Below are positions 1-11,438 of a DNA stretch of 64,000 bases, one piece after another. The position numbers and the translations under genes are program-made. The notes beneath the pieces are model-generated. The model made no database searches and was not told where the DNA came from. It was given only the letters and a program-made list of their open reading frames with translations. The stretch's first letter is position 1. Every line of letters begins with the position of its first letter. Where the stretch lies: positions 1 through 64,000 of the IMG/VR virus record IMGVR_UViG_3300030012_002710; one strand, given 5' to 3'. The DNA comes from a virus.

Positions 1-66
1 AAGGTTTTTCATTTATAAATATTAAAAATTTAAAAAATAATATTTTAAATATAATATAAAATATAT

Positions 67-99
67 ACAAATTTAATACAACATTAAATGGATAATATA
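67..99 (+). promoter_or_regulatory. Promoter-like element, copy 1
   Basis: One of four copies of a two-block element: a 13-nt block (ACAAATTTAATAC here), exactly 9 variable bases, then an 11-nt block (TGGATAATATA). The other copies are at 2026, 4013 and 9693. The second block looks like a -10 box. The element lies upstream of the first gene of the early block, so a promoter is the simplest reading. It does not match the usual Bacteroidota TTG/TAnnTTTG promoter. This copy is the most diverged in the first block. Confidence 0.65.
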
Positions 100-158
100 T
101 TAAAATAATAATAATAAAAATAATAATAAATAAATAAATAATAATAAATAATAATAAT
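100..158 (+). repeat. AT-only leader with AAT/AAAT repeats
   Basis: Between promoter copy 1 and the first ATG the sequence contains no G or C and consists of imperfect AAT and AAAT units. It would form an unstructured A-rich 5' leader, the kind of context from which SD-less Bacteroidota ribosomes initiate. The variable repeat number could also make it prone to slippage or assembly error. Confidence 0.6.
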
Positions 159-389
159 ATGGAAAATAAAATTGTCAAAAGGTTTGTTATATCAAAAAAT
201 GGAATTGATAACAAAATAACGTGTGAATTTACTAACAAAAAAAATGAAAAATTTATATATAATCAATATACTATATATAAACAATTAAAAGATAAATTCG
301 ATAATATGGAATGTTTTCAAAAATATAAAACATATACTAATACAAATAATTTACCAAAATTTGTCAGAGAATTATCAAGTTTAGTATAA
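159..389 (+). CDS. Hypothetical early protein
   Basis: A 76-aa lysine/asparagine-rich protein with no domain I recognise. It is the first gene after promoter copy 1, preceded by a purely A/T leader and no Shine-Dalgarno sequence. Such small basic proteins right behind an early promoter are often host-takeover factors in phages, but nothing in the sequence proves that here. Codon use matches its neighbours. Confidence 0.65.
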   Translation: MENKIVKRFVISKNGIDNKITCEFTNKKNEKFIYNQYTIYKQLKDKFDNMECFQKYKTYTNTNNLPKFVRELSSLV

Positions 390-393
390 TATA

Positions 394-432
394 AAAGTGG
401 AGGTTTATGACTTTCTTTTCTGATACCACTTT
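394..432 (+). ncRNA. Hairpin upstream of mini-tRNA-like element 1
   Basis: AAAGTGG (394-400) pairs perfectly with CCACTTT (426-432) around a 25-nt pyrimidine-rich loop. It begins just after the stop of the 159-389 gene and precedes the tRNA-like element at 454. It is not followed by a T tract, so an intrinsic terminator is unlikely. It may be part of one structured intergenic RNA with the element downstream, or chance pairing in AT-rich DNA. Confidence 0.35.
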
Positions 433-453
433 AAAAACTGTTGAACCAAGTCA

Positions 454-494
454 GAGATAAATGGTTAATGTGAGTTCGATTCTCACCTATCTCA
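454..494 (+). ncRNA. Mini-tRNA-like element 1 (acceptor stem plus T-arm only)
   Basis: GAGATA (454-459) pairs with TATCTC (488-493). Inside, GTGAG (470-474) and CTCAC (482-486) close a canonical 7-nt T-loop TTCGATT. The connector between 5' acceptor and T-stem is only about 10 nt and contains GG (ATGGTTAAT), like the D-loop guanines that dock on the T-loop. There is no anticodon arm and no room for one. The same architecture recurs at 2262-2305 with compensatory base changes. It ends 14 nt before the next ATG. Function unknown; it could be an RNase P/Z or CCA-enzyme substrate. Confidence 0.6.
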
Positions 495-508
495 CTAAAT
501 TATAAAAT

Positions 509-748
509 ATGAATAAAGTAAAATTCGATAGAGATGAAGTATATAATGTATGGATTCAAAATCACTGTGAATTAACACATGACGAAATCTCTGATTACAT
601 TGATAAAATTAAATTTTTGTACGAAGAAAATGATGATGAAGACTTTAAATTCCTTCAAAATCAAGACCCTTTAGAGATAGATGATATGTGGTCAAATTAC
701 TGGGAAAGTTTTAAATGGAATTTTCCAAATAGAATAAAATTAAAATAA
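509..748 (+). CDS. Hypothetical acidic protein
   Basis: A 79-aa protein rich in Asp, Glu and aromatic residues (several Trp in the C-terminal third). It starts 14 nt after mini-tRNA-like element 1, so its mRNA 5' end could be set by processing of that element. No recognised domain. It is the first of four consecutive tiny genes separated by only a few bases. Confidence 0.65.
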   Translation: MNKVKFDRDEVYNVWIQNHCELTHDEISDYIDKIKFLYEENDDEDFKFLQNQDPLEIDDMWSNYWESFKWNFPNRIKLK

Positions 749-754
749 ATAAAT

Positions 755-901
755 ATGAATAAAAGTATAACTGACATACTCGATTATGTATTAGTGGAAT
801 ATGAACACTTGACTACTGTTCAACAATGTAACTATATTCTAAATAAATATGATATAGAAATTACTAATGACATATTGATGTATATGAAAAATAATGGATA
901 A
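755..901 (+). CDS. Hypothetical 48-aa protein
   Basis: ATG at 755 opens a 48-aa frame ending TAA at 899-901 (MNKSITDILDYVLVEYE start). It has the same AAATAAATATG start context as adjacent genes and sits 6 nt after the previous stop and 1 nt before the next ATG. The sequence is mostly predicted helix with no recognised domain. Real by packing and context rather than by homology. Confidence 0.55.
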   Translation: MNKSITDILDYVLVEYEHLTTVQQCNYILNKYDIEITNDILMYMKNNG

Positions 902-902
902 T

Positions 903-1043
903 ATGAATAAAAGAAAACAAGTTAAAATAACATTATATAGTTATCTTAGTAATGATAACTTAAATAAATTAATGGAAAAAATGTTATGGGATTCAGAGTA
1001 CAGTTATGTACTTGAAGACTGTGAATGGAAAATAAATAAATAA
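903..1043 (+). CDS. Hypothetical 46-aa protein
   Basis: ATG at 903, one base after the previous stop, opens a 46-aa frame (MNKRKQVKITLYSYL start) with a basic N-terminus and acidic C-terminal half. Tight co-directional packing and the A-rich start context support it. No recognised domain. Confidence 0.5.
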   Translation: MNKRKQVKITLYSYLSNDNLNKLMEKMLWDSEYSYVLEDCEWKINK

Positions 1044-1047
1044 TAGT

Positions 1048-1197
1048 ATGGAAATAAGAATATACGATGGTCAAACCGACAACGAAGTAGGTAGATTATA
1101 TCTATCTCAAAGTGACGGAAAACCATCTAAAAAAGAAATAATAAATAATATAAAAGAAAACTACAATATAGATACTGTATATTGGAGTGTAATGTAA
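1048..1197 (+). CDS. Hypothetical 49-aa protein
   Basis: ATG at 1048 opens a 49-aa frame (MEIRIYDGQTDNEVG start, ending DTVYWSVM). The alternation of strands and a helix suggests a small alpha/beta fold. It lies 4 nt after the previous stop. No homology recognised. Confidence 0.5.
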   Translation: MEIRIYDGQTDNEVGRLYLSQSDGKPSKKEIINNIKENYNIDTVYWSVM

Positions 1198-1208
1198 AAA
1201 CAAATAAT

Positions 1209-1523
1209 ATGATTGTAAAAAGAAATGATTTTAATAGATACTTAATCCACGAGTTTATGAATGATAAACTACCTGGATATAGTTCAGAATTTAATGGTAA
1301 GTGGGTATTTTCACTTGACCATCATTATGAAAATGGACCTAAAGTCGCGTACGTTAAAACCGATACAGGTCATGAAACTATTTATCTTCGTGATGAAGAT
1401 GATGTTGACTATACTTGTCAAAGAATTCAAGAGACATTAATCAATTTAGATGATATATATGAATCAGAGAAAAGAATTGATGAGTATTGTGTTGAAAATC
1501 CGTGGACGAGACACGGAACTTAA
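1209..1523 (+). CDS. Hypothetical protein
   Basis: About 104 aa when started at ATG 1209 (MIVKRNDFNRYLIHEF). An in-frame ATG at 1182 would overlap the upstream gene, and 1209 has the usual AATAATATG context, so the shorter start is preferred. The protein is acidic with a hydrophilic, helical C-terminal half. No recognised domain; a compact early phage protein of unknown role. Confidence 0.65.
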   Translation: MIVKRNDFNRYLIHEFMNDKLPGYSSEFNGKWVFSLDHHYENGPKVAYVKTDTGHETIYLRDEDDVDYTCQRIQETLINLDDIYESEKRIDEYCVENPWTRHGT

Positions 1524-1544
1524 TGTGTAATTTAAATTAAATAT

Positions 1545-2021
1545 ATGAAATTAGTAGAAAAACTAAAAAATGGTACAGAAATGTACAGACTTGATGATGG
1601 TAGACTTGGTAAAATTTACCCTAAATCTGGTTATGTTAGAGTGACTACACTCAGACATGGTATCAGAGATGGTAAATATCACCGTGAAGATTCTACAAAA
1701 AACAGTAGATGGTATCAAATAAATAAAAAAGAAAAGTATAAGGATAAAGGTATGAAATTCAGTCATGTTAGAAGAATATTAATACCAAAAAGAAAAGACC
1801 AACTTGCTTTTCTTAAAGCGTTCAATGATAAAAATGCAGATAAAGTGATGCAAATGAAGAAAATGTTAGAAGGATATGCCAAAGGTTTAAGATGGTTTTC
1901 TAACTTTGAAGCAGAAAAAAGAGCTTTACTTCATATTAACTTAGATGATAAGTTAAATCAAATCAAAGATGCTTTAAAATCTATTGAAAAAGATGTTACT
2001 TCAAGTAATTTCTGGAAATAG
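1545..2021 (+). CDS. Hypothetical basic protein
   Basis: A 158-aa strongly basic protein. The N-terminal 60 residues hold short Gly-rich strands (NGTEMYRLDDGRLGKIYPKSG), and the C-terminal half is predicted helical and possibly coiled. The charge suggests nucleic-acid binding, but no known domain is evident. Promoter-like copy 2 begins 4 nt after its stop, so this gene probably ends a transcription unit. Confidence 0.65.
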   Translation: MKLVEKLKNGTEMYRLDDGRLGKIYPKSGYVRVTTLRHGIRDGKYHREDSTKNSRWYQINKKEKYKDKGMKFSHVRRILIPKRKDQLAFLKAFNDKNADKVMQMKKMLEGYAKGLRWFSNFEAEKRALLHINLDDKLNQIKDALKSIEKDVTSSNFWK

Positions 2022-2025
2022 AATT

Positions 2026-2058
2026 ACAAACCAAATACAATTTACTTTAGATAATATA
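2026..2058 (+). promoter_or_regulatory. Promoter-like element, copy 2
   Basis: ACAAACCAAATAC, 9 variable bases, TAGATAATATA: same order and spacing as copies at 67, 4013 and 9693. It fills the gap between the stop at 2021 and the zinc-ribbon gene at 2072, leaving a 13-nt A/T leader. Location and geometry support a promoter for the 2072 gene and the RNA element behind it. Confidence 0.72.
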
Positions 2059-2071
2059 ATAAAATATATAT

Positions 2072-2263
2072 ATGAAGTATTGTAAATGTGGTAATATTCT
2101 TCATCCTGTTCGTTTAGAATTAGGTTATAATAAATGTGTGCAATGTTCTGACATTCAACAAGTTAGTTATATACCTATTATTGCAAACAAACAGGTTTTA
2201 GAAGTACAAGTTGTTAGTCAAGAACTAAGTGCACAAGTACATAAATCTTGGCGACGCAAATAG
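2072..2263 (+). CDS. Small zinc-ribbon-like protein
   Basis: A 63-aa protein with CxC-G near the N-terminus (CKCG, residues 4-7) and CVQC about 16 residues later, a four-cysteine arrangement typical of a rubredoxin-like zinc ribbon. The C-terminal part is hydrophilic and ends in a basic tail. Its TAG stop overlaps the first base pairs of mini-tRNA-like element 2, so gene and RNA element are physically coupled. Zinc binding is inferred from cysteine spacing only; the function is unknown. Confidence 0.6.
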   Translation: MKYCKCGNILHPVRLELGYNKCVQCSDIQQVSYIPIIANKQVLEVQVVSQELSAQVHKSWRRK

Positions 2264-2305
2264 AGTTGCATGGTGATTTAGTGGGTTCGATTCCCACTCA
2301 ACTCT
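2262..2305 (+). ncRNA. Mini-tRNA-like element 2 (acceptor stem plus T-arm only)
   Basis: AGAGTTG (2262-2268) pairs with CAACTCT (2299-2305). GTGGG (2281-2285) and CCCAC (2293-2297) close T-loop TTCGATT. The 12-nt connector contains ATGGTGATTTA, again with GG. Compared with element 1 (454-494), three base pairs change on both sides (two in the acceptor, one in the T-stem), which is evidence for a selected structure. It starts inside the stop codon of the 2072 gene. The trailer CTAACTTTAAAT after it is nearly identical to the one after tRNA-CAT at 4264. Anticodon and D-stem are absent. Confidence 0.62.
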
Positions 2306-2329
2306 CTAACTTTAAATAAATAAATAAAT

Positions 2330-2518
2330 ATGAATTTTCACTTAAACAAAAAGTATAACTTTGTAAAAGGTTTAACTTTAACAGAAATAATAGTGTATGG
2401 TTACATTGGTTTACTATCACTAACTGCAATAGCAGGTATAATAACTGTATTTGGTTACATTTTACTAAATCCAGTTGAAGCAGGTAACGCAATGGATAAC
2501 AGTGGTTTTAACTTTTAA
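2330..2518 (+). CDS. Small membrane protein
   Basis: A 62-aa protein with one strong membrane segment at about residues 20-47 (IIVYGYIGLLSLTAIAGIIT and following), a basic N-terminus and a short polar C-terminus. No known domain. It starts 24 nt after mini-tRNA-like element 2. Possible roles include superinfection exclusion or an early membrane effector, but this is inference. Confidence 0.6.
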   Translation: MNFHLNKKYNFVKGLTLTEIIVYGYIGLLSLTAIAGIITVFGYILLNPVEAGNAMDNSGFNF

Positions 2519-2520
2519 TT

Positions 2521-2736
2521 ATGAATATAAAACAAGATAAACTAGAAGAGTGGAGAATGTACAAAATAAAACATTCTCAACATTATAAAAATATCGTTGC
2601 GATAGATTTAGCAAAATACATGGTTAGTTCTTTTAAGAAAAACTATTCCATACATCAACCTAAAAGCATTCAACCATATTTTGAATCAGAGTTAGATAAA
2701 ATATTAAAAGAAATAGATAAAATTAAATATTGGTAG
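2521..2736 (+). CDS. Hypothetical basic protein
   Basis: A 71-aa basic, probably helical protein (MNIKQDKLEEWRMYKIKH start) without a recognised domain. It begins 2 nt after the previous stop and ends 1 nt before the next ATG, indicating translational coupling within the early operon. Confidence 0.6.
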   Translation: MNIKQDKLEEWRMYKIKHSQHYKNIVAIDLAKYMVSSFKKNYSIHQPKSIQPYFESELDKILKEIDKIKYW

Positions 2737-2737
2737 T

Positions 2738-2899
2738 ATGAGATTTACAAGAATAGACCCAAAGCTTATTAAAAAACATAAAAATATGATAATGAATCAG
2801 CTTTTATTAAATTTTAATAAATCCTCTGGATTAACTCCTCTTGAGTTAAGAGCAAAATTAAAAGAATTAAGTAAAAAATTAGATGAATTAGATGAATAA
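2738..2899 (+). CDS. Hypothetical 53-aa protein
   Basis: ATG at 2738 gives 53 aa ending in a Lys/Glu/Leu/Asp-rich helix with a heptad-like pattern (ELSKKLDELDE). Its last 8 bases overlap the start of the 2892 gene in another frame, a typical stop/start overlap. No recognised function. Confidence 0.55.
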   Translation: MRFTRIDPKLIKKHKNMIMNQLLLNFNKSSGLTPLELRAKLKELSKKLDELDE

Positions 2900-3308
2900 T
2901 ATAGAAAATTGTATTGGTAGTGGTGTAAAAATCACTCAAGTTGAATTTAATATTGGACTTGATGGTCACATGTATACTGAAAATGGTGTTGCAACTTTAT
3001 TAAGGCAAGCTGGATTTAAATTATATGATGACGCTTACTTTGTAGATAAAGGTAAATATTTAGGAAATGATGAACCAACTTTTGTAGGTTTAACTTCAAT
3101 TATTGCTTCTATAAAGGAAATAAAAGACAAAGTAAAAGATTTATGCGATATATTACAGCAAGATTGCATTGCAATTCTTATTGATAATTATAAAGGTAAA
3201 TTAATATATAACAAAAGACATCTAAAACAAGTACCTAAATCAAAATTTGATTCAGATTTGTTTATAGATGCTTATAATAAAAAGAATTTTAATAAAAACT
3301 TTAAATAA
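2892..3308 (+). CDS. Hypothetical protein
   Basis: A 138-aa protein with an N-terminal mixed alpha/beta region (GSGVKITQVEFNIGLDGH), a central helix with alternating Lys/Asp and a basic C-terminus. No family recognised. It overlaps the preceding gene by 8 nt and abuts the next ATG directly. Confidence 0.6.
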   Translation: MNNIENCIGSGVKITQVEFNIGLDGHMYTENGVATLLRQAGFKLYDDAYFVDKGKYLGNDEPTFVGLTSIIASIKEIKDKVKDLCDILQQDCIAILIDNYKGKLIYNKRHLKQVPKSKFDSDLFIDAYNKKNFNKNFK

Positions 3309-3557
3309 ATGGAAAAAGGATATATAACAATATTAGACTTTGAAATAGGTAATGTATTTCAATATGAATTAATAGATATAAATATGCAAACAGAAGAATG
3401 TGAGCAATTTATAGAAGATAAAGGGCATAATGCTACTAATTGTGAATGGATGTGTCATAAAAACAAAGGTGTAAGATTTAATTACCCTCAAGAAGTGACA
3501 GAAGATTTAAGAAGAATTGATATTAATATGGATGGAACAAGAGAAATTTGCGGATAA
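3309..3557 (+). CDS. Hypothetical acidic protein
   Basis: An 82-aa acidic protein starting immediately after the previous stop. It contains several cysteines (NCEWMCHKNKG in the second half) that could bind metal, though the spacing matches no family I know. Part of the tightly packed early operon. Confidence 0.6.
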   Translation: MEKGYITILDFEIGNVFQYELIDINMQTEECEQFIEDKGHNATNCEWMCHKNKGVRFNYPQEVTEDLRRIDINMDGTREICG

Positions 3558-3558
3558 T

Positions 3559-3765
3559 ATGAAAAAAATAAAGAAAACATCAGATAAATTTAAAATGTTC
3601 TTTGATGGATTACCTCACAAAGGATATATGCTTGGTGATTTACCACCTACATTCGGCAAGAAATGGATCGAAGATTATGATGAGGAAGGTGAATTAAACT
3701 TAAAGCAAGGTATTAGTAAATGGTATAACTATAAAGGATTAACATGGATAAGAATAACGAATTAG
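3559..3765 (+). CDS. Hypothetical protein
   Basis: About 68 aa from ATG 3559 (MKKIKKTSDKFKMFF). A longer in-frame start at 3517 would lie inside the preceding gene, and 3559 sits 1 nt after that gene's stop, so it is preferred. A basic N-terminus is followed by an aromatic-rich, acidic middle. No recognised domain. The 3' end overlaps the 3744 gene by 22 nt. Confidence 0.6.
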   Translation: MKKIKKTSDKFKMFFDGLPHKGYMLGDLPPTFGKKWIEDYDEEGELNLKQGISKWYNYKGLTWIRITN

Positions 3766-4031
3766 AAATAAAACAAAAGCTTAACAATGATGCATTTGAT
3801 AAAGCTCAATCGCAAATGTATAATCTTAAACAAGATATTGTAAGACAAAAAGAAGAAATAAGAATAGGTGGAGATGGTACTATTCCAGTAGAACTATTAA
3901 AAACCTGCTTACAGTCAAGTGAAAAGCAATTGGCTATATGGGAATATATCAATGAACTTATATGGCATGATATGGACCATGAACTACCAACACAGAAAAC
4001 TTGGCATAAATTACAAACTAAATACGATTAA
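3744..4031 (+). CDS. Hypothetical helical protein
   Basis: A 95-aa, largely helical protein with a probable coiled-coil N-terminal half (NNELEIKQKLNNDAFDKAQS) and Trp/His-rich C-terminus. Its ATG lies inside the end of the preceding gene. Its last codons overlap promoter-like copy 3 (4013-4045), so the promoter constrains the C-terminal codons. Function unknown. Confidence 0.6.
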   Translation: MDKNNELEIKQKLNNDAFDKAQSQMYNLKQDIVRQKEEIRIGGDGTIPVELLKTCLQSSEKQLAIWEYINELIWHDMDHELPTQKTWHKLQTKYD

Positions 4032-4045
4032 CTTACGATAATATA
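4013..4045 (+). promoter_or_regulatory. Promoter-like element, copy 3
   Basis: ACAAACTAAATAC, 9 variable bases, ACGATAATATA. It overlaps the last codons and stop of the 3744 gene and lies 21 nt before the first stem of the structured RNA at 4067. The first block is identical to that of copy 4 (9693) even though here it is coding sequence, which argues against chance. It probably drives the structured RNA, the tRNA and the genes behind them. Confidence 0.7.
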
Positions 4046-4066
4046 TATACATATTATTATTATTTA

Positions 4067-4181
4067 GGAAGTGTCTGGAAGACTGTAAGTCAGAAAGATG
4101 ATATAAACAGATAGAGTAAGACGCTTATGCCCTCTTAATGCGGAAGCTATAAGCGCGTACATTCCAGTTTCATCCACTTCC
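4067..4181 (+). ncRNA. Unidentified structured RNA
   Basis: A 115-nt non-coding stretch with nested perfect pairings: GGAAGTG (4067-4073) with CACTTCC (4175-4181), CTGGAA (4075-4080) with TTCCAG (4162-4167), and CGCTTAT (4122-4128) with ATAAGCG (4149-4155). There is also a small hairpin GACT-GTA-AGTC at 4081-4091. GATGA (4097-4101) could pair with TCATC (4170-4174), which would cross the second stem as a pseudoknot. It lies between promoter copy 3 and tRNA-CAT. Its ends look like a 7-bp acceptor, but no T-arm is present. I checked by eye for hammerhead, twister, tmRNA and group I core signatures and found none. Confidence 0.55.
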
Positions 4182-4190
4182 ACCTTATAT

Positions 4191-4264
4191 TGCGCGGTAG
4201 AGCAGATGGTCAGCTCGCGAGTCTCATAAACTCGAGGTCGGTGGTTCGAATCCACCTCGCGCAC
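4191..4264 (+). tRNA. tRNA with CAT anticodon (Met, or Ile2 if modified)
   Basis: A full cloverleaf: acceptor TGCGCGG/TCGCGCA (one G-T wobble), D-stem GAGC/GCTC with loop AGATGGTCA, anticodon stem CGAGT/ACTCG with loop CTCATAA (anticodon CAT at 4225-4227), and T-stem GGTGG/CCACC with loop TTCGAAT. CCA is not encoded; the discriminator is C. The anticodon stem lacks the GGG/CCC of initiator tRNAs, so elongator Met or Ile2 is more likely than fMet. It is followed by CTAACTTTAAAT and then the ATG at 4284. Confidence 0.93.
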
Positions 4265-4283
4265 CTAACTTTAAATTAAATAA

Positions 4284-4619
4284 ATGGATTATATAAATAA
4301 ATTAGAAAAATATCTAGGCGATAAATATGATTGCTTAGTTAAAATCGGTGAAAATATAAATAACCCCGATTTAGAATTATCTGAGTGGTATACTGCTGAT
4401 GATTATACAGTATATGTTATGACAAATGATGCTAGAAACATTGATTGGGAAAATGATGTATACTATTATGAACCAAGTTTTGATATTATTATAGATAGAA
4501 TACATGAAACAGTTGATGATATGGGTTTTGGTGGTGAAGTTAAAATATATATGGACACTGAACAGTTTTTACCTGAACAGGATACACTTGATTGGTTAGA
4601 AGATAAAGATGGCAACTAG
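4284..4619 (+). CDS. Hypothetical acidic protein
   Basis: A 111-aa very acidic protein rich in Asp, Glu and Tyr. No domain recognised. Acidity of this kind suggests a DNA mimic or a partner of a basic protein, but that is speculative. It starts 19 nt behind the tRNA and overlaps the next gene by 11 nt. Its TAG stop shows that TAG is not reassigned. Confidence 0.65.
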   Translation: MDYINKLEKYLGDKYDCLVKIGENINNPDLELSEWYTADDYTVYVMTNDARNIDWENDVYYYEPSFDIIIDRIHETVDDMGFGGEVKIYMDTEQFLPEQDTLDWLEDKDGN

Positions 4620-5100
4620 AGCACTAATAAGAGTTATACCCAGACAACAAGGTATTGCGTATGACAAAGGGCATATGTATGTAGAAGAGTCTTTAGTAAA
4701 TATATATCATCATTATGATGGTAATCCTGAGCATTTAGGTGTTAAACTAGCTAAATTTTTATTACCTTATAAAATTACAAATGGTGTTTCTAACTTGAAT
4801 GTTAAAGATTTTACACATTTAGCTAATGGCCCAGAATGTTTAGCAGCACAATTAGTTAAACAATTAAAAACTGGTGACATTTGTGACACGGTTGTTGGTA
4901 ATGTATATTTATATCCAAGAAACTCTTATAAATATGATGCGGAATATATATATACTTTATATCCTAAAACAGACGAACCTACATACGTAGCTATTTATAA
5001 AAACTTTGATGATGAAGTTATATTTGTAGGTACACCAGATAAATTAATTAAAAAGTATGACAGACAAAGAGATAAACAAATTAGCAGCACGAGTAGCTGA
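4609..5100 (+). CDS. Conserved-looking phage protein of unknown function
   Basis: A 163-aa protein starting MATRALIRVIPR and containing a NIYHHYDGNPEHLGVKLAKF segment. The TRALI-RV plus Y-HYDG-P combination is familiar from many phage hypothetical proteins, but I know no assigned function. It is predicted alpha/beta and soluble, and overlaps both neighbouring genes, so it is translationally coupled. Confidence 0.65.
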   Translation: MATRALIRVIPRQQGIAYDKGHMYVEESLVNIYHHYDGNPEHLGVKLAKFLLPYKITNGVSNLNVKDFTHLANGPECLAAQLVKQLKTGDICDTVVGNVYLYPRNSYKYDAEYIYTLYPKTDEPTYVAIYKNFDDEVIFVGTPDKLIKKYDRQRDKQISSTSS

Positions 5101-5302
5101 TCTTGTACTTAAAAAGTTTGTAGATTATTATGATAATCATGAGTCTTTAGAAGTGTTTAAACCTACTGAAGAAGATGTATTAGATTTTGAAATACAAAGA
5201 CTTAGCCAGCTATTGTACCAATATGAAGAAAAAGAAGAGTATGAAAAAGCTGCAATTGTTAAGAAAAAACTAGAAATATTAAATAAAAGACGTAAAAAAT
5301 GA
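5057..5302 (+). CDS. Small UVR-motif-like protein
   Basis: An 81-aa protein whose C-terminal half (about residues 45-75, IQRLSQLLYQYEEKEEYEKA) resembles the UVR helical hairpin of UvrB/UvrC and McsA-type proteins, in which an E-Y-E-K-A-A core follows a Leu-rich helix. It overlaps the upstream gene by 44 nt and the ligase gene by 4 nt (ATGA). The link to repair is inferred from the motif and from lying next to ligase. Confidence 0.55.
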   Translation: MTDKEINKLAARVADLVLKKFVDYYDNHESLEVFKPTEEDVLDFEIQRLSQLLYQYEEKEEYEKAAIVKKKLEILNKRRKK

Positions 5303-6156
5303 GTGATTTTAATGTAATGCTAGCACACCCATACGGCAAAAAAGCGTTTGACAAAGACTCTTTTATTCAGCCAAAACTAGATGGTGTTAGATGCTATATA
5401 ACCAAAGACGGCGCATTCAGCCGCAACCACAAAGAGTTTAAAACTGTAGATCACATTAAAGATCTGTTTAAACCTCTATTTGAATTGGCACCCGATATAA
5501 TACTTGACGGTGAACTCTACAACCACCAATTTAAAGACAACTTCAATAAAATTATATCCCTTGTGAGAAAACAAAAGCTAACTGATGAAGATAGAGCTGA
5601 AGCTAAAAAGTATATACAGTTTCATTGGTATGATTTTTACAATCCAAGTGATAAATTTGCAACATACAGAAGAAGACATCAGCTTATTAAACTAAACGTA
5701 ACAGAGCTGCAATCCATATTTCATAAAATATTAAAATTTCCAATCGTACCAGTTGAAGCATACGAAGTATCCTTACTTGATTCAGCTAAATTATGGCATG
5801 ATCACTATATTAAAGCTGGTTATGAAGGTAGTATAATTAGAAACAATAAACCTTATGAACAAAAAAGAAGTTACAACTTACAAAAATTCAAAGATTTCCA
5901 TGACACAGAAGCGACAATTGTTGGCTATGTTGAAGGCAAAGGTAAAAGAAGCGGAACAATTGGCAAGTTCTTGGCTGTTGATAGTAGTGGCATCCATTTC
6001 GGCATGCCTGTTATGGAAGATTATGACACTATGGCAATGATGCTTGTTAATGTCAAAGATTATATTGGCAAAAAAGCTACATTTACATACTTTCAAAAGA
6101 CGCCTAGAGGATCATATAGACATCCTCTATTTAAATCTCTTAGAAATTATGAATAA
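5299..6156 (+). CDS. ATP-dependent DNA ligase
   Basis: A 285-aa nucleotidyltransferase. Motif I KLDGVR is at residues 26-31, with Lys26 as the expected adenylated residue. DGELY (motif III), YEGSIIR (motif IV) and a C-terminal QKFKD (motif V) follow, with an OB-fold-like tail. Length fits the small phage ligases that seal Okazaki fragments and recombination nicks. Its start overlaps the UVR-like gene stop by 4 nt. The N-terminal third is visibly richer in G/C than the flanking genes. Confidence 0.9.
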   Translation: MSDFNVMLAHPYGKKAFDKDSFIQPKLDGVRCYITKDGAFSRNHKEFKTVDHIKDLFKPLFELAPDIILDGELYNHQFKDNFNKIISLVRKQKLTDEDRAEAKKYIQFHWYDFYNPSDKFATYRRRHQLIKLNVTELQSIFHKILKFPIVPVEAYEVSLLDSAKLWHDHYIKAGYEGSIIRNNKPYEQKRSYNLQKFKDFHDTEATIVGYVEGKGKRSGTIGKFLAVDSSGIHFGMPVMEDYDTMAMMLVNVKDYIGKKATFTYFQKTPRGSYRHPLFKSLRNYE

Positions 6157-6415
6157 TCTATCAGATTTAATCGTACCTTTTATGATAGCAATAACTATGG
6201 GCTTTAGCGGTTATGCTGTGGCCCTTATTGCTGATTATATTAGAAAAATAATTATAATACCTTTAATATGTATGTTTGTATTCGATGCAGCTGTATTATT
6301 TGGTTATTATTCAATAGAAACATCCAAGTTACAAATGATGATGGGTGTTATGTTAGGAACGATACTTAAAATAGTATCATTTATATTATATCAAAAATAT
6401 TTAAGCAATGAGTAG
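6149..6415 (+). CDS. Small integral membrane protein
   Basis: 88 aa from ATG 6149 (MNNLSDLIVPFMIAITMGF). This start overlaps the ligase stop; the longer frame from 6044 would lie mostly inside ligase. Three hydrophobic segments (about residues 8-27, 33-52 and 60-80) indicate three membrane helices. No family recognised. An early-strand location makes a lysis role less likely than a membrane effector. Confidence 0.65.
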   Translation: MNNLSDLIVPFMIAITMGFSGYAVALIADYIRKIIIIPLICMFVFDAAVLFGYYSIETSKLQMMMGVMLGTILKIVSFILYQKYLSNE

Positions 6416-6515
6416 AAAATTATTTAATCATATGATAAGTGTTAATTTATTTAACATAAATAATAAACGTAAAAGAAAACAAAATGCTAATAAAAAACAG
6501 AAAAAACGGACATAG
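6408..6515 (+). CDS. Very small basic protein
   Basis: ATG at 6408 opens a 35-aa frame extremely rich in Lys, Arg and Asn (MSRKLFNHMISV start, ending NANKKQKKRT). It overlaps the membrane-protein gene end by 8 nt and the next gene start by 32 nt. The overlaps favour a real gene, but the length and composition leave real doubt. Confidence 0.4.
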   Translation: MSRKLFNHMISVNLFNINNKRKRKQNANKKQKKRT

Positions 6516-6690
6516 AGATTATTTATGGAACTCTATATATGAGTTACGTAAAGATATAACTAATTATGTTTTAAAATGTAAAGCTAAAAATAAACGTATA
6601 AAACTACATAAATTAGATCACAAAGCAGAATTGATTATAAAGTACTCTGAGAAACTTAAAAAGTTTCAAGAGACACCTACCTTAAGATGA
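6484..6690 (+). CDS. Hypothetical basic protein
   Basis: A 68-aa Lys-rich helical protein (MLIKNRKNGHRDYLWNSIYE). No recognised domain. It may bind nucleic acid given its charge. It precedes a 35-nt gap before the HTH gene at 6726. Confidence 0.6.
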   Translation: MLIKNRKNGHRDYLWNSIYELRKDITNYVLKCKAKNKRIKLHKLDHKAELIIKYSEKLKKFQETPTLR

Positions 6691-6725
6691 CAATAGGTAG
6701 TAATATTTAATAGAGTAATAGGCTA

Positions 6726-7334
6726 ATGTCATACAGGAAAATAGATTATTTAAATAGGAATAGAATTATATACAATAGAGATCCTATAAATGATAAGCCA
6801 ACAAAAACATTTACCTGGGGTAAATTTTATGAATACGGAACATACGAGTGCTATGAGTTGTTTAAAAGTAAAGCAAAGATTAATAGTTTTAAATCACTTA
6901 AATGGCACTTGTTAGTTCTAAAATATTTAAACCCAGAGCTTGAAGATAAAGATTTTAATAATCTTGCATATTATATAACAAATAAAAAAAATAATTTTAT
7001 TACTTTTAATATAAAACAAAAGTATTTAATTGACATGTTGGATAACTTAGAAATAGATAGACCTCCAGTTAATAGAAAACGAAAGGTAGTGTTTAATCAA
7101 CAAACAAAGTTAACAACAAAAGAAAAATTACAAATAGTAGGCCAATTAATAGGTAGATCTTCAGTTATAAAACAAGAAGATATTTATCAATGCATGTTAA
7201 ATTTACATGAGTCAAATGAAAAAATAACATGGATTAGAGTTGCAAAACTATTAAACTGTTCTGTAAGAACTATTTATCGTAATTTAAATAAAGAATTAAA
7301 AATTGAAAAAATTAATTTAAATGAAGAAATATAA
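6726..7334 (+). CDS. Putative DNA-binding protein with C-terminal HTH
   Basis: A 202-aa basic protein. The last 50 residues (ITWIRVAKLLNCSVRTIYRN) look like a helix-turn-helix in which V-A-K-L-L-x-C-S-V-R-T-I-Y-R-N is the turn plus recognition helix, similar to sigma region 4 or replication-initiator HTHs. The N-terminal part is basic and aromatic-rich without a recognised fold. It overlaps the sigma-factor gene by 14 nt, suggesting a shared regulatory role. It could also be a replication initiator. Confidence 0.6.
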   Translation: MSYRKIDYLNRNRIIYNRDPINDKPTKTFTWGKFYEYGTYECYELFKSKAKINSFKSLKWHLLVLKYLNPELEDKDFNNLAYYITNKKNNFITFNIKQKYLIDMLDNLEIDRPPVNRKRKVVFNQQTKLTTKEKLQIVGQLIGRSSVIKQEDIYQCMLNLHESNEKITWIRVAKLLNCSVRTIYRNLNKELKIEKINLNEEI

Positions 7335-8073
7335 TATATCTAATTATATTAGATACAAAGAAGATGTAAAAGAATCTCAACCAGTATCAAGCAATGTTAT
7401 TGAATATAGTAGAAATGATTTAATAAATAAGTTTTTACCATTAGTAGAAAATATAGCTAGAAAATTTTCAACTTCACAACAAGCTTCAGGTATATTAGAT
7501 ATAACTGATCTAATACAAGAAGGATCAATAGGTCTTGTTAAAGCAGTTGATAAATTAGATTATTCAGTCTTATCTGAATCAAAAGATAAAGAAAAAACAT
7601 TAAAGTCGTTTTTTTTCAAACGTGTTAAAGGTGCTATACGTAGAGCAATAGATCATAACAGAGGTAATATTAGAATACCTGAACATAAAATGAATGAAAT
7701 ACGTAAAAACCCAAAAGACAAAAAAATGGTTGAAATGTTTTTTAATTCTATATTTTTAAGTATAGATAAAAAAACAATGACAGATGATGAAGATATGGTA
7801 TACCAAATACCTGATCAATCTGAACCATACAATATTAATATTCTAAATAGTTATTTAAAAAGTTTAATGAGAAAACATTTAGAAGAAAACGAATATGAAG
7901 TTTTAAGACTATCATATGGCCTTGATTGTGATAAACATTCTGCTACTCAAATAGCAGATAAAATTAATATCAAAGGACCGAGTGGATATGTAAGAGTTTC
8001 TGAGCTTAAAAAGCAAGCTGTAAGAAAATTAATTGATAATGTAGATCACTCGCAAGTGCTTGATTATCTGTAA
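7321..8073 (+). CDS. RNA polymerase sigma-70-family factor
   Basis: A 250-aa protein. Region 2 is visible at about residues 25-110: NKFLPLVENIARKF, then DLIQEGSIGLVKAVDKLD (core-binding region 2.1-2.2), then FFFKRVKGAIRRAIDHNRG (2.3-2.4). A region 4-like HTH occupies about 185-240 (EYEVLRLSYGLDCDKHSATQ...VSELKKQAVRKL). This is an alternative sigma able to redirect host RNA polymerase to phage promoters. It is the natural candidate to read the 33-bp elements at 67, 2026, 4013 and 9693, or an unidentified late promoter. Coupled to the HTH gene upstream. Confidence 0.82.
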   Translation: MKKYNISNYIRYKEDVKESQPVSSNVIEYSRNDLINKFLPLVENIARKFSTSQQASGILDITDLIQEGSIGLVKAVDKLDYSVLSESKDKEKTLKSFFFKRVKGAIRRAIDHNRGNIRIPEHKMNEIRKNPKDKKMVEMFFNSIFLSIDKKTMTDDEDMVYQIPDQSEPYNINILNSYLKSLMRKHLEENEYEVLRLSYGLDCDKHSATQIADKINIKGPSGYVRVSELKKQAVRKLIDNVDHSQVLDYL

Positions 8074-8134
8074 GATACAGATGTAAATAGCAATTTTAAT
8101 GTGTAATTATATATAATACAAACCCTTTAAACCT

Positions 8135-8650
8135 ATGACACTTAACGATAAGTTAGCAACTATTCAGACTAAGTTTAAATCGAAAAAAAGTAGATTTAAT
8201 TCATTCGGCAAATATTACTTCCGCTCTGCCGAAGACATTCTCGAAGCAACTAAACCCTTTTTATTAGAATTAGGAGTTACAATAACATTAAATGAAAATT
8301 TAATTAAAAGTAAACCTATGCCTATTATTGAGAGTATAGCTACTATATCTGATGGTAAAAATTCAATTAAAGCAACAGCTTTAGTTGGTGTAGATCTTTT
8401 ACAAAAAGGTATGCAAACACCACAACAGTTTGGTTCTGCTTCAAGTTATGGGAAGAAATACGCACTTGGAAATTTATTTCTAATCGATGATACACAAGAC
8501 AGTGATGCTGTAAATGATCATAACAGAACTATGACACCAGATCAAATAACACAAGCTAAAAAGTTTTTAAAATCTGGCGGTAAACTAGCTGCTATTAAAG
8601 CAAAATATAACATAACACCTAAATTAGAACAAGAACTTACAACATTGTAA
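8135..8650 (+). CDS. ERF-type single-strand annealing recombinase
   Basis: A 171-aa protein with the ERF-family core: a short N-terminal helix, KYYFRSAEDILEATKPFL, then GVDLLQKGMQTPQQFGSASSYGKKYAL and LFLIDDTQDSDA near residues 90-130. ERF proteins anneal complementary single strands in phage recombination. It is followed without a gap by a PDDEXK exonuclease and an SSB-like gene, the usual partners. The 61-nt upstream gap ends in an A/T leader. Confidence 0.85.
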   Translation: MTLNDKLATIQTKFKSKKSRFNSFGKYYFRSAEDILEATKPFLLELGVTITLNENLIKSKPMPIIESIATISDGKNSIKATALVGVDLLQKGMQTPQQFGSASSYGKKYALGNLFLIDDTQDSDAVNDHNRTMTPDQITQAKKFLKSGGKLAAIKAKYNITPKLEQELTTL

Positions 8651-9382
8651 ATGGATAAAGAAGATATTTTAAAAAGGTTAAAAAATGATAATGACTACTA
8701 CGGTGACTTTGGTAAAAAGTTTCTTAGTAATTCAGATATTAAAACCTTATTAAAAAATCCTTTAGCACTTGGACAACCAAGTAAACCTTCAGCTGCATTT
8801 CTAGTTGGTGGATACTTACATACTGCTATACTTGAACCAAATAAATTAAAAAAGTATAAAGTAATAGAATCTACCACTAGAAATACGAAGGCATATAAAG
8901 AGATTTCAGATGGCGAATTATGCTTACTACAACACGAAGTTGATAAAATAGAATTAATGGTAGATACTATAATGCAAAATAATGTTTGCAAAGATCTCAT
9001 TAAAAGTAAAAATGTAGAGTATGAAGTACCAGGTCTGAAAGAAATTGAAGGAGAGATGTGGAAAGGTAAAGCTGATATAATTAATCATGATGAAAGATTA
9101 ATTGTTGATTTAAAAACAACATCAGATATTGATAAATTTAAATATTCAGCAAACCAATATAACTATGACAGTCAAGCATTTATTTATAATCAACTATTTA
9201 ATTATGAAATGCTATTTATTGTTATTGATAAACAAACTCTTCAAATAAAAATTTGTGAATGCTCTGAAGAATTTTACGAAAAGGGTCAACGTAAAGTACA
9301 AGAGGCAGTATCACAATATCAATTATTTTTTAAATCAAAAGACTTTGACCCTAAACAATATTTTAAAACAGAAACTTTATAA
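8651..9382 (+). CDS. PDDEXK exonuclease (RecE/Cas4-like)
   Basis: A 243-aa nuclease. The catalytic signature is at about residues 120-165: E near YEVPGLKEIEGEMWKGKADI (GKAD providing the first Asp), then LIVDLKTTSDIDKF (D-x-K motif), then a conserved QYNYDSQAFIYNQ helix with the Q-x3-Y pattern of RecB-type nucleases. It would resect ends to give single strands for the ERF protein upstream. Its stop overlaps the next ATG. Confidence 0.85.
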   Translation: MDKEDILKRLKNDNDYYGDFGKKFLSNSDIKTLLKNPLALGQPSKPSAAFLVGGYLHTAILEPNKLKKYKVIESTTRNTKAYKEISDGELCLLQHEVDKIELMVDTIMQNNVCKDLIKSKNVEYEVPGLKEIEGEMWKGKADIINHDERLIVDLKTTSDIDKFKYSANQYNYDSQAFIYNQLFNYEMLFIVIDKQTLQIKICECSEEFYEKGQRKVQEAVSQYQLFFKSKDFDPKQYFKTETL

Positions 9383-9693
9383 TGGCATCAATAATAAAAA
9401 CAAGTATTAACCTAAACAATATTCCTAAAGATAAGATTATTGTTGGAGCTAAAGGCAAATATTTACCTATTAGTTTAACTTTAAATGATGAAGTAGATCA
9501 ATTTGGTAATAATGGACCTGTTATTGTAGAACAAACAAAAGAAGAAAGAGAATCAAAAGTTGATAAAGTTTATTTAGGTAATGCAAAAGTTGTTTGGACT
9601 AACGGTATGAATGTTGAAGCGGCACCTAGAATGGATCAGCCAAAAGCTATGCCTAAAGCTGAACCAGCTCAAGAACCTGATTTACCATTTTAA
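9382..9693 (+). CDS. Putative single-stranded DNA-binding protein
   Basis: A 103-aa protein with a beta-rich N-terminal two-thirds and a Pro/Ala-rich linker ending in EPDLPF. The last residues match the acidic DDIPF-type tail with which SSBs recruit repair and replication partners. OB-fold identity is inferred from size, tail and position directly between ERF/exonuclease and primase-helicase. Promoter copy 4 begins at its stop codon. Confidence 0.6.
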   Translation: MASIIKTSINLNNIPKDKIIVGAKGKYLPISLTLNDEVDQFGNNGPVIVEQTKEERESKVDKVYLGNAKVVWTNGMNVEAAPRMDQPKAMPKAEPAQEPDLPF

Positions 9694-9725
9694 CAAACTA
9701 AATACAAACAGATTTAGATAATATA
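9693..9725 (+). promoter_or_regulatory. Promoter-like element, copy 4
   Basis: ACAAACTAAATAC, 9 variable bases, TAGATAATATA. It fills the gap between the SSB-like stop (9693) and the primase-helicase ATG (9729). Only 3 nt separate the element from that ATG, so a transcript started 6-8 nt past a -10 box would begin at or just after the A of the ATG. Confidence 0.72.
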
Positions 9726-9728
9726 TAT

Positions 9729-11438
9729 ATGCAAATAACAGAGATCAATGGATTTGTGATTGATAAATTTAATCAACATGGTCTAGAGCAAGGTAAGTCT
9801 CAAGGGACATGCCCTTTATGCTCACACACTAGACAACCTAAAAATAAAAAGCTTAAATGTGCTTCTTATGATTGGGAACGTGGTCTCGGTACTTGTCACA
9901 ACTGTAATAAAACATTTCAATTACATACTTACAAGCGTAAAGGAGACAGTGAAAAAAATTATATTCGTCCAGAATTCAAAAGTCAAAAACCTGTAGGTAG
10001 CAAAATAGTTAAATGGTTTAATGACAGAGGTATATCTCAGTCGACCCTTAATGATTTAAATGTATCTGAGGGTCCTGAGTTTATGCCACAGACAAGTAAG
10101 ACTGAAAATACAATAAAGTTCAACTACATGATGGGTGGTGAACTTATAAATATAAAATATAGAGATGGTAGAAAAAACTTTAAATTATATAAAGGCGCAG
10201 AAAAAATATTTTATAATATTGATAGTATTATTGGTTATGATGAATGTTATATTGTGGAAGGAGAGATGGATGCTTTATCTTTTCATGAAGTGGGGATCAC
10301 TAACGTTATATCAGTACCTAATGGAGCTACTTTAAACTCTAATAATTTAGATTATTTAGATAACTGTATTGATTATTTTGAAAATAAAAATAAAATAATA
10401 TTAGCAGTTGATAATGATGAAGCAGGCCAAGCACTACAACAAGAATTAATTAGAAGACTAGGTGCAGAAGTTTGTTACATTATAGATTTTAAAGATTGTA
10501 AAGATGCTAATGAATATTTAATTAAACATGGTAAAGAAGCTTTTTCAAATATTCTCAAACACGCCAAAGCAGTACCTCTTGAAAACGTTACCACTTTTAA
10601 TGATATTGAAAGTGAAGTTACAGACTTTGTACAGCATGGTTTTAAACCAGGTTATCAAGCTGGTTTATCCAACTTTGACAAAATTTTTTCAACTTATACA
10701 GGACAATTTATTACTGTTACAGGTATACCTTCTTCTGGTAAGTCTGATTTTGTTGATCAGCTTGTTGTTGGTTATAACATAAATTATAAATGGAAAACAG
10801 CTTTTGCATCGCCTGAAAATGCACCAACCTATTTACATGCACATAAGTTGATGCGTAAAGTTTGGCAAGGTATGCCAACACCAGGTGATATAAATACTAA
10901 TCAATGGAAAAAAGTAGCAGAGCATATTAATGATAATTTCTTTTTTATTGATATGGAAAGATATACCCTTGAGTCTGTATTACGTAAAGGTGCAGAGTTA
11001 GTTAAACGTAAAGGTATTAAATGTCTTGTTATAGATCCTTTTAATAAAATTAGAGATGTAGATTGTAATACTGAAGATGTTAATAAGTATACAATGGAAT
11101 ATCTTACAAAAATAGAAGTGTTTGCAAAAAAGTTTGATGTGCTAGTTTTTATAGTTGCACATCCAACTAAAATGTATAAAGACAAAGACGGTAAAATTGA
11201 AGAACCAAATATGTATAATATAAAAGGTGGTGGCGAATGGTATGATGCTTCTTACCATGGTATATTAGTACATAGAGACTACGAAGCTAAAACTGTTAAA
11301 GCTAAAGTTTTAAAAGTTAAGTTTCAAAACTTAGGTGAAAATGGAGCAGAAGCTTATTTTAAATGGGAACCTAAGTCAGGTTGTTTTATACCTCATTTAG
11401 ATCAACAACAGATTAATGATGTAATGCCTTGGGATTAA
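9729..11438 (+). CDS. Bifunctional primase-helicase (T7 gp4-like)
   Basis: A 569-aa protein. An N-terminal zinc ribbon uses C28, C31, C44 and C56/C59 (CPLC...CHNC). A Toprim domain follows, with VEGEMDALSF near residues 177-186 and ILAVDNDEAGQA near 220-231. A RecA-like hexameric helicase has Walker A TGIPSSGKSD (about 331-340), Walker B CLVIDPFN (about 433-440) and VFIVAHPTK. It unwinds the fork and lays RNA primers. It is the first gene after promoter copy 4, with hardly any 5' UTR possible. Confidence 0.93.
   Translation: MQITEINGFVIDKFNQHGLEQGKSQGTCPLCSHTRQPKNKKLKCASYDWERGLGTCHNCNKTFQLHTYKRKGDSEKNYIRPEFKSQKPVGSKIVKWFNDRGISQSTLNDLNVSEGPEFMPQTSKTENTIKFNYMMGGELINIKYRDGRKNFKLYKGAEKIFYNIDSIIGYDECYIVEGEMDALSFHEVGITNVISVPNGATLNSNNLDYLDNCIDYFENKNKIILAVDNDEAGQALQQELIRRLGAEVCYIIDFKDCKDANEYLIKHGKEAFSNILKHAKAVPLENVTTFNDIESEVTDFVQHGFKPGYQAGLSNFDKIFSTYTGQFITVTGIPSSGKSDFVDQLVVGYNINYKWKTAFASPENAPTYLHAHKLMRKVWQGMPTPGDINTNQWKKVAEHINDNFFFIDMERYTLESVLRKGAELVKRKGIKCLVIDPFNKIRDVDCNTEDVNKYTMEYLTKIEVFAKKFDVLVFIVAHPTKMYKDKDGKIEEPNMYNIKGGGEWYDASYHGILVHRDYEAKTVKAKVLKVKFQNLGENGAEAYFKWEPKSGCFIPHLDQQQINDVMPWD

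Follow-up and report, generated by a model that had tools for sequence, protein, structure and literature searches.

The window analysed here is a 64,000-nucleotide stretch (64 kb) of an IMG/VR virus record of 67,717 bases (IMGVR_UViG_3300030012_002710). Its large terminase matches those of podoviruses of Flavobacterium, Cellulophaga, Tenacibaculum, and Maribacter and of one uncultured phage, from which a flavobacterium is probably the host. Between a promoter-like repeat and a tRNA gene lies a structured RNA, designated family A, and the features of this locus are as follows.

4018–4044, plus strand: promoter-like repeat CTAAATACGA-n-GATAATAT (repeat family D1, one of three copies in the first 10 kb; putative promoter)
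4067–4181, plus strand: family A structured RNA, whole element (covariation; model R1 57.7 bits, E 1.6e-11, the window sequence itself being among those from which R1 was built)
4067–4073, plus strand: P1 5′ strand GGAAGTG (P1 cells 98.1% paired, double changes at 5 of 6 pairs)
4075–4080, plus strand: P2 5′ strand CTGGAA (100% paired; CTGGAA, TTGGAA, and CAGGAA each with its own partner)
4081–4091, plus strand: P3 arm, tight hairpin GACT-GTA-AGTC (other hairpin modules occupy the arm in relatives)
4097–4101, plus strand: pseudoknot 5′ strand GATGA, with conserved GAAA just before it (100% paired, double changes at 3 of 5 pairs)
4102–4112, plus strand: conserved A-rich strand TATAAACAGAT crossing P2 (ATAAACAGA invariant in alignment A5)
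4122–4155, plus strand: distal hairpin of the second arm, 7 bp, CGCTTAT 4122–4128 with ATAAGCG 4149–4155 (fold and alignment; variable in relatives)
4162–4167, plus strand: P2 3′ strand TTCCAG (same basis as the P2 5′ strand)
4170–4174, plus strand: pseudoknot 3′ strand TCATC (same basis as its 5′ strand, and the unbiased check described below)
4175–4181, plus strand: P1 3′ strand CACTTCC (same basis as the P1 5′ strand)
4191–4265, plus strand: tRNA-Met(CAT), which we take to be of the initiator type by comparison with Escherichia coli tRNA-fMet (ARAGORN; Rfam tRNA 60.9 bits; A11:U24, loop CTCATAA, weak U1-A72)

The original prediction placed a promoter-like element directly before the RNA. 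The repeat itself is real, with three copies of CTAAATACRA...GATAATAT in positions 1–10,000 of the window (2026–2062, 4013–4049, and 9693–9729), and the copy at 4018–4044 ends about 20 nt 5′ of the RNA; its role as a promoter remains putative. The same repeat is present before genes in relatives. The window also contains two minimal tRNA-like elements of about 41–44 nt (454–494 and 2262–2305), each an acceptor stem and T-arm lacking an anticodon arm, which lie between genes, the second overlapping the stop codon of a CxxC protein gene at 2072–2263.

Fold of the RNA and searches against known families

In the window RNA, a 7-bp terminal stem (P1) encloses a 6-bp stem (P2) together with a 5-bp pseudoknot; the 3′ strand of the knot falls between those of P2 and P1, the defining trait of family A. 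The fold exceeds chance, because RNAfold, with the pseudoknot left out, gives −30 kcal/mol and z = −2.64 for 4067–4181, and because the combination of P1, P2, and pseudoknot arises in 19 of 200,000 dinucleotide-shuffled versions of these 115 nt. The three long stems and tight hairpin that had been noted from the sequence alone are all present, the GC content of the element is above that of its flanks, and the 9-nt gap before the tRNA corresponds to a spacer at 4182–4190. That the 115 nt are free of genes likewise holds: the sole listed open reading frame across the element is a 66-aa minus-strand frame, which is not a credible gene because it also crosses the tRNA, and a protein-coding reading was rejected.

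No Rfam family fits 4067–4181. At Rfam gathering thresholds, cmscan of the 64 kb returned only the tRNA, and at E values up to 5 this region added to the tRNA only an antisense look-alike of a tRNA and a snoRNA match at chance level. A compact relative (L217) had no Rfam match up to E 10, gathering and relaxed thresholds on module-rich relatives yielded no family for the window RNA, and the Rfam ribozyme models matched neither the window RNA nor the compact member. When blastn was run against annotated phages, only the tRNA matched among the matches listed.

Relatives and covariation

Relatives were gathered by way of the neighbouring DNA ligase and then by a core pattern, giving about 20 distinct members of approximately 61–214 nt, nearly all from IMG/VR phage contigs. 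Judged from these comparisons, the window RNA belongs to a new RNA family absent from Rfam. A first pattern scan with GGAAGTGTCTGGAA gave chance matches for the most part. An exact-pattern scan of GTDB genomes gave nine matches, of which one is a true member and the others score low by R1; the true member lies on a metagenome-assembled contig binned as Ilumatobacteraceae (JABSQH010000086.1, L338), which is probably a mis-binned phage contig. Model R1 found no member in the isolate records MW202828, NC_021796, and NC_055854.

The pseudoknot GATGA/TCATC, proposed as a possibility from the window alone, is conserved in relatives, where its changes come in matched pairs. A close relative (L002/L122, IMG/VR 3300012952_000033) carries the RNA at the same place with the pseudoknot GACAA/TTGTC, that is, with two compensatory changes relative to the window, while the strands GAAAGA and ATAAACAGAT are identical in both. 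Across members the pseudoknot takes the forms GATGA, GACAA, GATAG, GACAG, and GACGG, and P2 the forms CTGGAA, TTGGAA, and CAGGAA, each with its partner; forms of P1 include GGAAGTG/CACTTCC, GAGAGG/CCTCTC, GAGAAGA/TCTTCTC, ATGTAGGG/CCCTACAT, and AAGTGAGG/CCTCACTT. Among 19 members aligned from GAAAGA to the pseudoknot 3′ strand, 100% of pseudoknot cells are paired and three of its five pairs are doubly changed.

For P1, P2, and the pseudoknot together, 99.3% of cells are paired against 89.7% in shuffles in alignment A5 of 18 trimmed members including the window, which was hand-cut to the paired segments, omits a 1-nt A insertion of some members, and consists of members pre-selected for pairing. 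When the partner strand is slid by one to three columns in these 18 members, pairing falls to 24–47%; 9 of the 17 pairs are doubly changed, a number reached in 0 of 500 shuffles. An unbiased check came from a scan in which the knot was not a requirement: a perfect knot occurs in 22 of its 25 matches, with five different knot sequences, some of the 22 being near-identical copies. The three matches lacking it are homologous to one another, a single stretch that an open protein frame crosses. Covariance in homologues, named in the original prediction as a means of checking the fold, thus agrees with it, and the proposal of a structured RNA outside the known families has been borne out by compensated stem changes and by the lack of a confident Rfam match.

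The unpaired core is conserved as well, the columns of GAAAGA...ATAAACAGA...ATTCCAGT being invariant or nearly so (alignments A3 and A5). Covariation shows family A to have, as its predicted common structure, an H-type pseudoknot (P2 and the knot) with the A-rich ATAAACAGA crossing P2 and the terminal stem P1 closing the whole. In L125, 61 nt immediately 5′ of a tRNA-Met (GGAAGG...CTTCC) represent a minimal form, able to fold into P1, P2, and the pseudoknot with plain loops and no hairpins. It is probably a member, scoring 19.3 bits with R1 (E 0.005), a single sequence whose nested fold alone is not significant. Because these helices can form there without hairpins, the family core may be no more than an H-type pseudoknot on a terminal stem, to which both arms would be additions.

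Neighbouring tRNA-type domains and exchangeable modules

Downstream of the RNA, 22 of 24 tallied rows, some near-identical copies included, have a tRNA or tRNA-like domain in the same orientation. The distance is 3–9 nt in 13 of the 22 rows, and in the others the domain stands behind interposed sequence, mostly hairpins. At the upstream side, P1 overlaps the stop codon of the preceding gene in several rows. In the members inspected, the downstream tRNAs are also of the initiator type by comparison with E. coli tRNA-fMet, with the CTCATAA loop, a mismatch or weak pair at 1–72, and A11:U24. The arrangement has exceptions. In the L300/L217 group, one of the two in the tally and lacking a tRNA, the RNA starts at a stop codon and is followed by a terminator-like inverted repeat and a T run, and in L180 it lies about 12 nt before a start codon, also with no tRNA. 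The RNA is dispensable, since in some relatives (L127, L135, L149, L161, and L166) the tRNA directly follows the gene with nothing between.

In many relatives the place of the tRNA is taken by a tRNA-like domain with a 7-bp acceptor stem (mostly G3.U70, with A73), AAATGGTTAG, and a T-arm; an anticodon arm is lacking. Its G3.U70, its T-arm, and its lack of a D stem are tmRNA traits, and the Rfam tmRNA model aligns to both of its ends, at 41.2 bits (E 4e-15) in L138 and 27.9 bits in L131, both below the gathering score of 47. It differs from tmRNA in that a tag reading frame and pseudoknots are absent, only a short variable arm (25 nt in L131) lying between the ends. Such domains lie at 5558–5655 in L138 and 5399–5470 in L131, and downstream of the RNA in L132, L143, L136, L280, L293, and L307; ARAGORN calls none of them in the loci scanned. 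Phages are known to encode tmRNAs, including two-piece forms in marine phages (PMC9004378), and no description of tag-less tmRNA-like domains of this kind was found in the literature searched. In the window RNA no feature of tmRNA is present, and its identity as a tmRNA was rejected. So was a reading as the mRNA-like portion of a split tmRNA, since members compared by eye keep no common reading frame. RtcB, sought as a means of excising inserts in the tRNA-like arms, is absent from the window phage and from ten relatives searched; an RtcB-type tRNA splicing ligase occurs in Cellulophaga phage phi38:1 (L374, 19247–20650), which has 16 annotated tRNAs in the stretch read. What was first described as a structured RNA tied by position to a tRNA therefore stands, with the refinement that the tRNA is of the initiator type and is replaced in many relatives by a tmRNA-like domain.

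The P3 and distal arms carry differing hairpin bodies. These are found again elsewhere on other stems, sometimes nested in one another, and look mobile. Examples on different stems are GTTTCCCACT..AGAAAGGATGTTTGAC and ACGAGTAGCTTAATTAGG..CATAAGTGAAT (L143 at 5365 and 5578; L138, L134, L171, L293, and L320). In L301, two copies of the family A RNA stand in tandem.

Structurally different P1-closed RNAs fill the same place 5′ of tRNAs or tRNA-like domains in L130, L148, L165, L141, and L396, so that position matters more than the identity of the RNA. A second structured RNA (GGCAGATATGCAG...TTGTCCA...TGGGCA/TGGACA), which has no Rfam match in L165, lies directly upstream of tRNA-Met in L130, L148, and L165. 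A third P1-closed RNA occurs 5′ of tRNA-like domains in L141 (about 5727–5815), L396, and L398. In L396 it reads AAAAG-CTCGG-ATAAAGCATAA...ACCGGT-CCGAG, and it is possibly a distant family A relative with the same H-type knot.

Possible roles beside a predicted RNase P cut

The comparisons establish that a conserved pseudoknotted RNA sits next to predicted tRNA-type processing sites. The explanation preferred here, which we hold tentatively, is that the RNA is a cis-acting structure adjoining an RNase P cut that protects or insulates the upstream RNA end. It would act at the boundary between the upstream transcript and the tRNA or tmRNA-like domain, where RNase P would cut 3–10 nt 3′ of P1 and free the tRNA 5′ end. 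The compact knot would then shield the upstream RNA from 3′–5′ exonucleases by capping its 3′ end, and might also prevent misfolding of the leader with the tRNA. The strongest argument for such a cap is that unlike structures share the position before the tRNA or tRNA-like domain; in addition, the RNA of the L300/L217 group, which lacks a tRNA, stands at a transcript end, with a stop codon before it and a terminator-like repeat after it. Three observations speak against it. In the window, the RNA is separated from the upstream gene by the promoter-like repeat and would accordingly be the 5′ part of its transcript instead of the 3′ end of the mRNA before it; bases that are unpaired yet invariant point to a particular partner or activity beyond simple capping; and the RNA is dispensable in some relatives and precedes a start codon, with no tRNA, in L180.

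The logic of this proposed cap is that of tRNA punctuation and of the mammalian MALAT1 and MEN-beta lncRNAs, whose 3′ ends form a triple helix with an A-rich strand directly 5′ of the tRNA-like mascRNA or menRNA (PMC9777231; PMC12609000). Common to both is a compact structure with an A-rich strand immediately 5′ of a tRNA-like element, whereas the lncRNA structure is a U-rich triple helix, that of the phage is an H-type pseudoknot, and the two are not homologous.

Alternatively, the element could be an independent trans-acting small RNA of about 115–130 nt, transcribed from the promoter-like repeat at 4018–4044, released by RNase P, and stable, which binds a host or phage protein or a part of the ribosome through its A-rich and GAAA strands. 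We consider this possible but doubtful. The closeness of the repeat, the closure of the RNA into a compact unit by P1, and the near invariance of the unpaired core letters would all suit such a role, as does the precedent of phage T4, whose stable RNAs C and D (species 1 and 2) are likewise small non-coding RNAs of more than 100 nt beside phage tRNA genes, rnaC also holding a T-arm sequence. In many relatives, however, the RNA adjoins or overlaps a stop codon and no promoter-like repeat intervenes, and the arms differ greatly among members. The T4 RNAs are also unlike family A in lying 3′ rather than 5′ of the tRNAs. A descriptor similar to the P1-P2-pseudoknot topology gave no match in rnaC or rnaD, R1 scored at chance level on the T4 region, and identity with these RNAs was rejected for want of a shared topology. 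The comparative anatomy overall appears to fit a cis element at an RNase P site somewhat better than a trans-acting small RNA. The original prediction of a phage small RNA or cis-regulatory RNA is partly supported, its co-transcription with the tRNA and processing from it being putative.

It is unlikely that the RNA is a mobile or selfish module, one of a set of structures spreading among non-coding phage sites while doing the phage little good. Such a module could account for the recurrence and nesting of hairpin bodies on varying terminal stems, for the tandem pair in L301, and for the relatives with no RNA 5′ of the tRNA, but the compensatory changes in P1 and the pseudoknot indicate selection on the fold, and tRNA or tRNA-like neighbours are strongly preferred. 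Improbable, too, is a self-cleaving ribozyme that would trim the leader of the tRNA or sever tRNA from mRNA: a compact pseudoknot with invariant unpaired letters adjoins an RNA processing site, yet no Rfam ribozyme matches, no conserved letter stands at a fixed distance from the tRNA, and host RNase P normally matures phage tRNAs.

RNase P RNA carries GAAAG in CR-I, and ACAGNRA is expected before the 3′ strand of P4. A divergent or minimal RNase P RNA is very improbable and the identity was rejected, since family A resembles the bacterial core in its helix order (P1-P2-P3-PK-...-P2′-PK′-P1′, with P4 as the pseudoknot) and in a CR-I-like GAAAG before the knot but, at about 61–214 nt, lacks ACAGNRA (P2′ is followed by U(U) and then PK′, with conserved CATTCCAGT before PK′), any other recognisable conserved region, and any match to an Rfam RNase P model up to E 10 in L217 and E 5 in the window.

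On a bolder reading, these phages might use a modular RNA punctuation in which tmRNA-like domains and initiator tRNAs mark intergenic cut sites, with exchangeable knotted caps and nested mobile hairpins grafted beside them and spreading without protein-coding mobile elements, a speculative scheme that we regard as rather unlikely to hold in full. The comparisons strongly support family A as a new family of structured RNAs in a little-studied phage group, tied by position to initiator tRNAs and to tag-less tmRNA-like domains. If its members are caps at RNase P sites, bacterial viruses would offer a counterpart of tRNA punctuation and of the MALAT1 end, and if the modules are mobile, these would open a way to study the spread of RNA structures.
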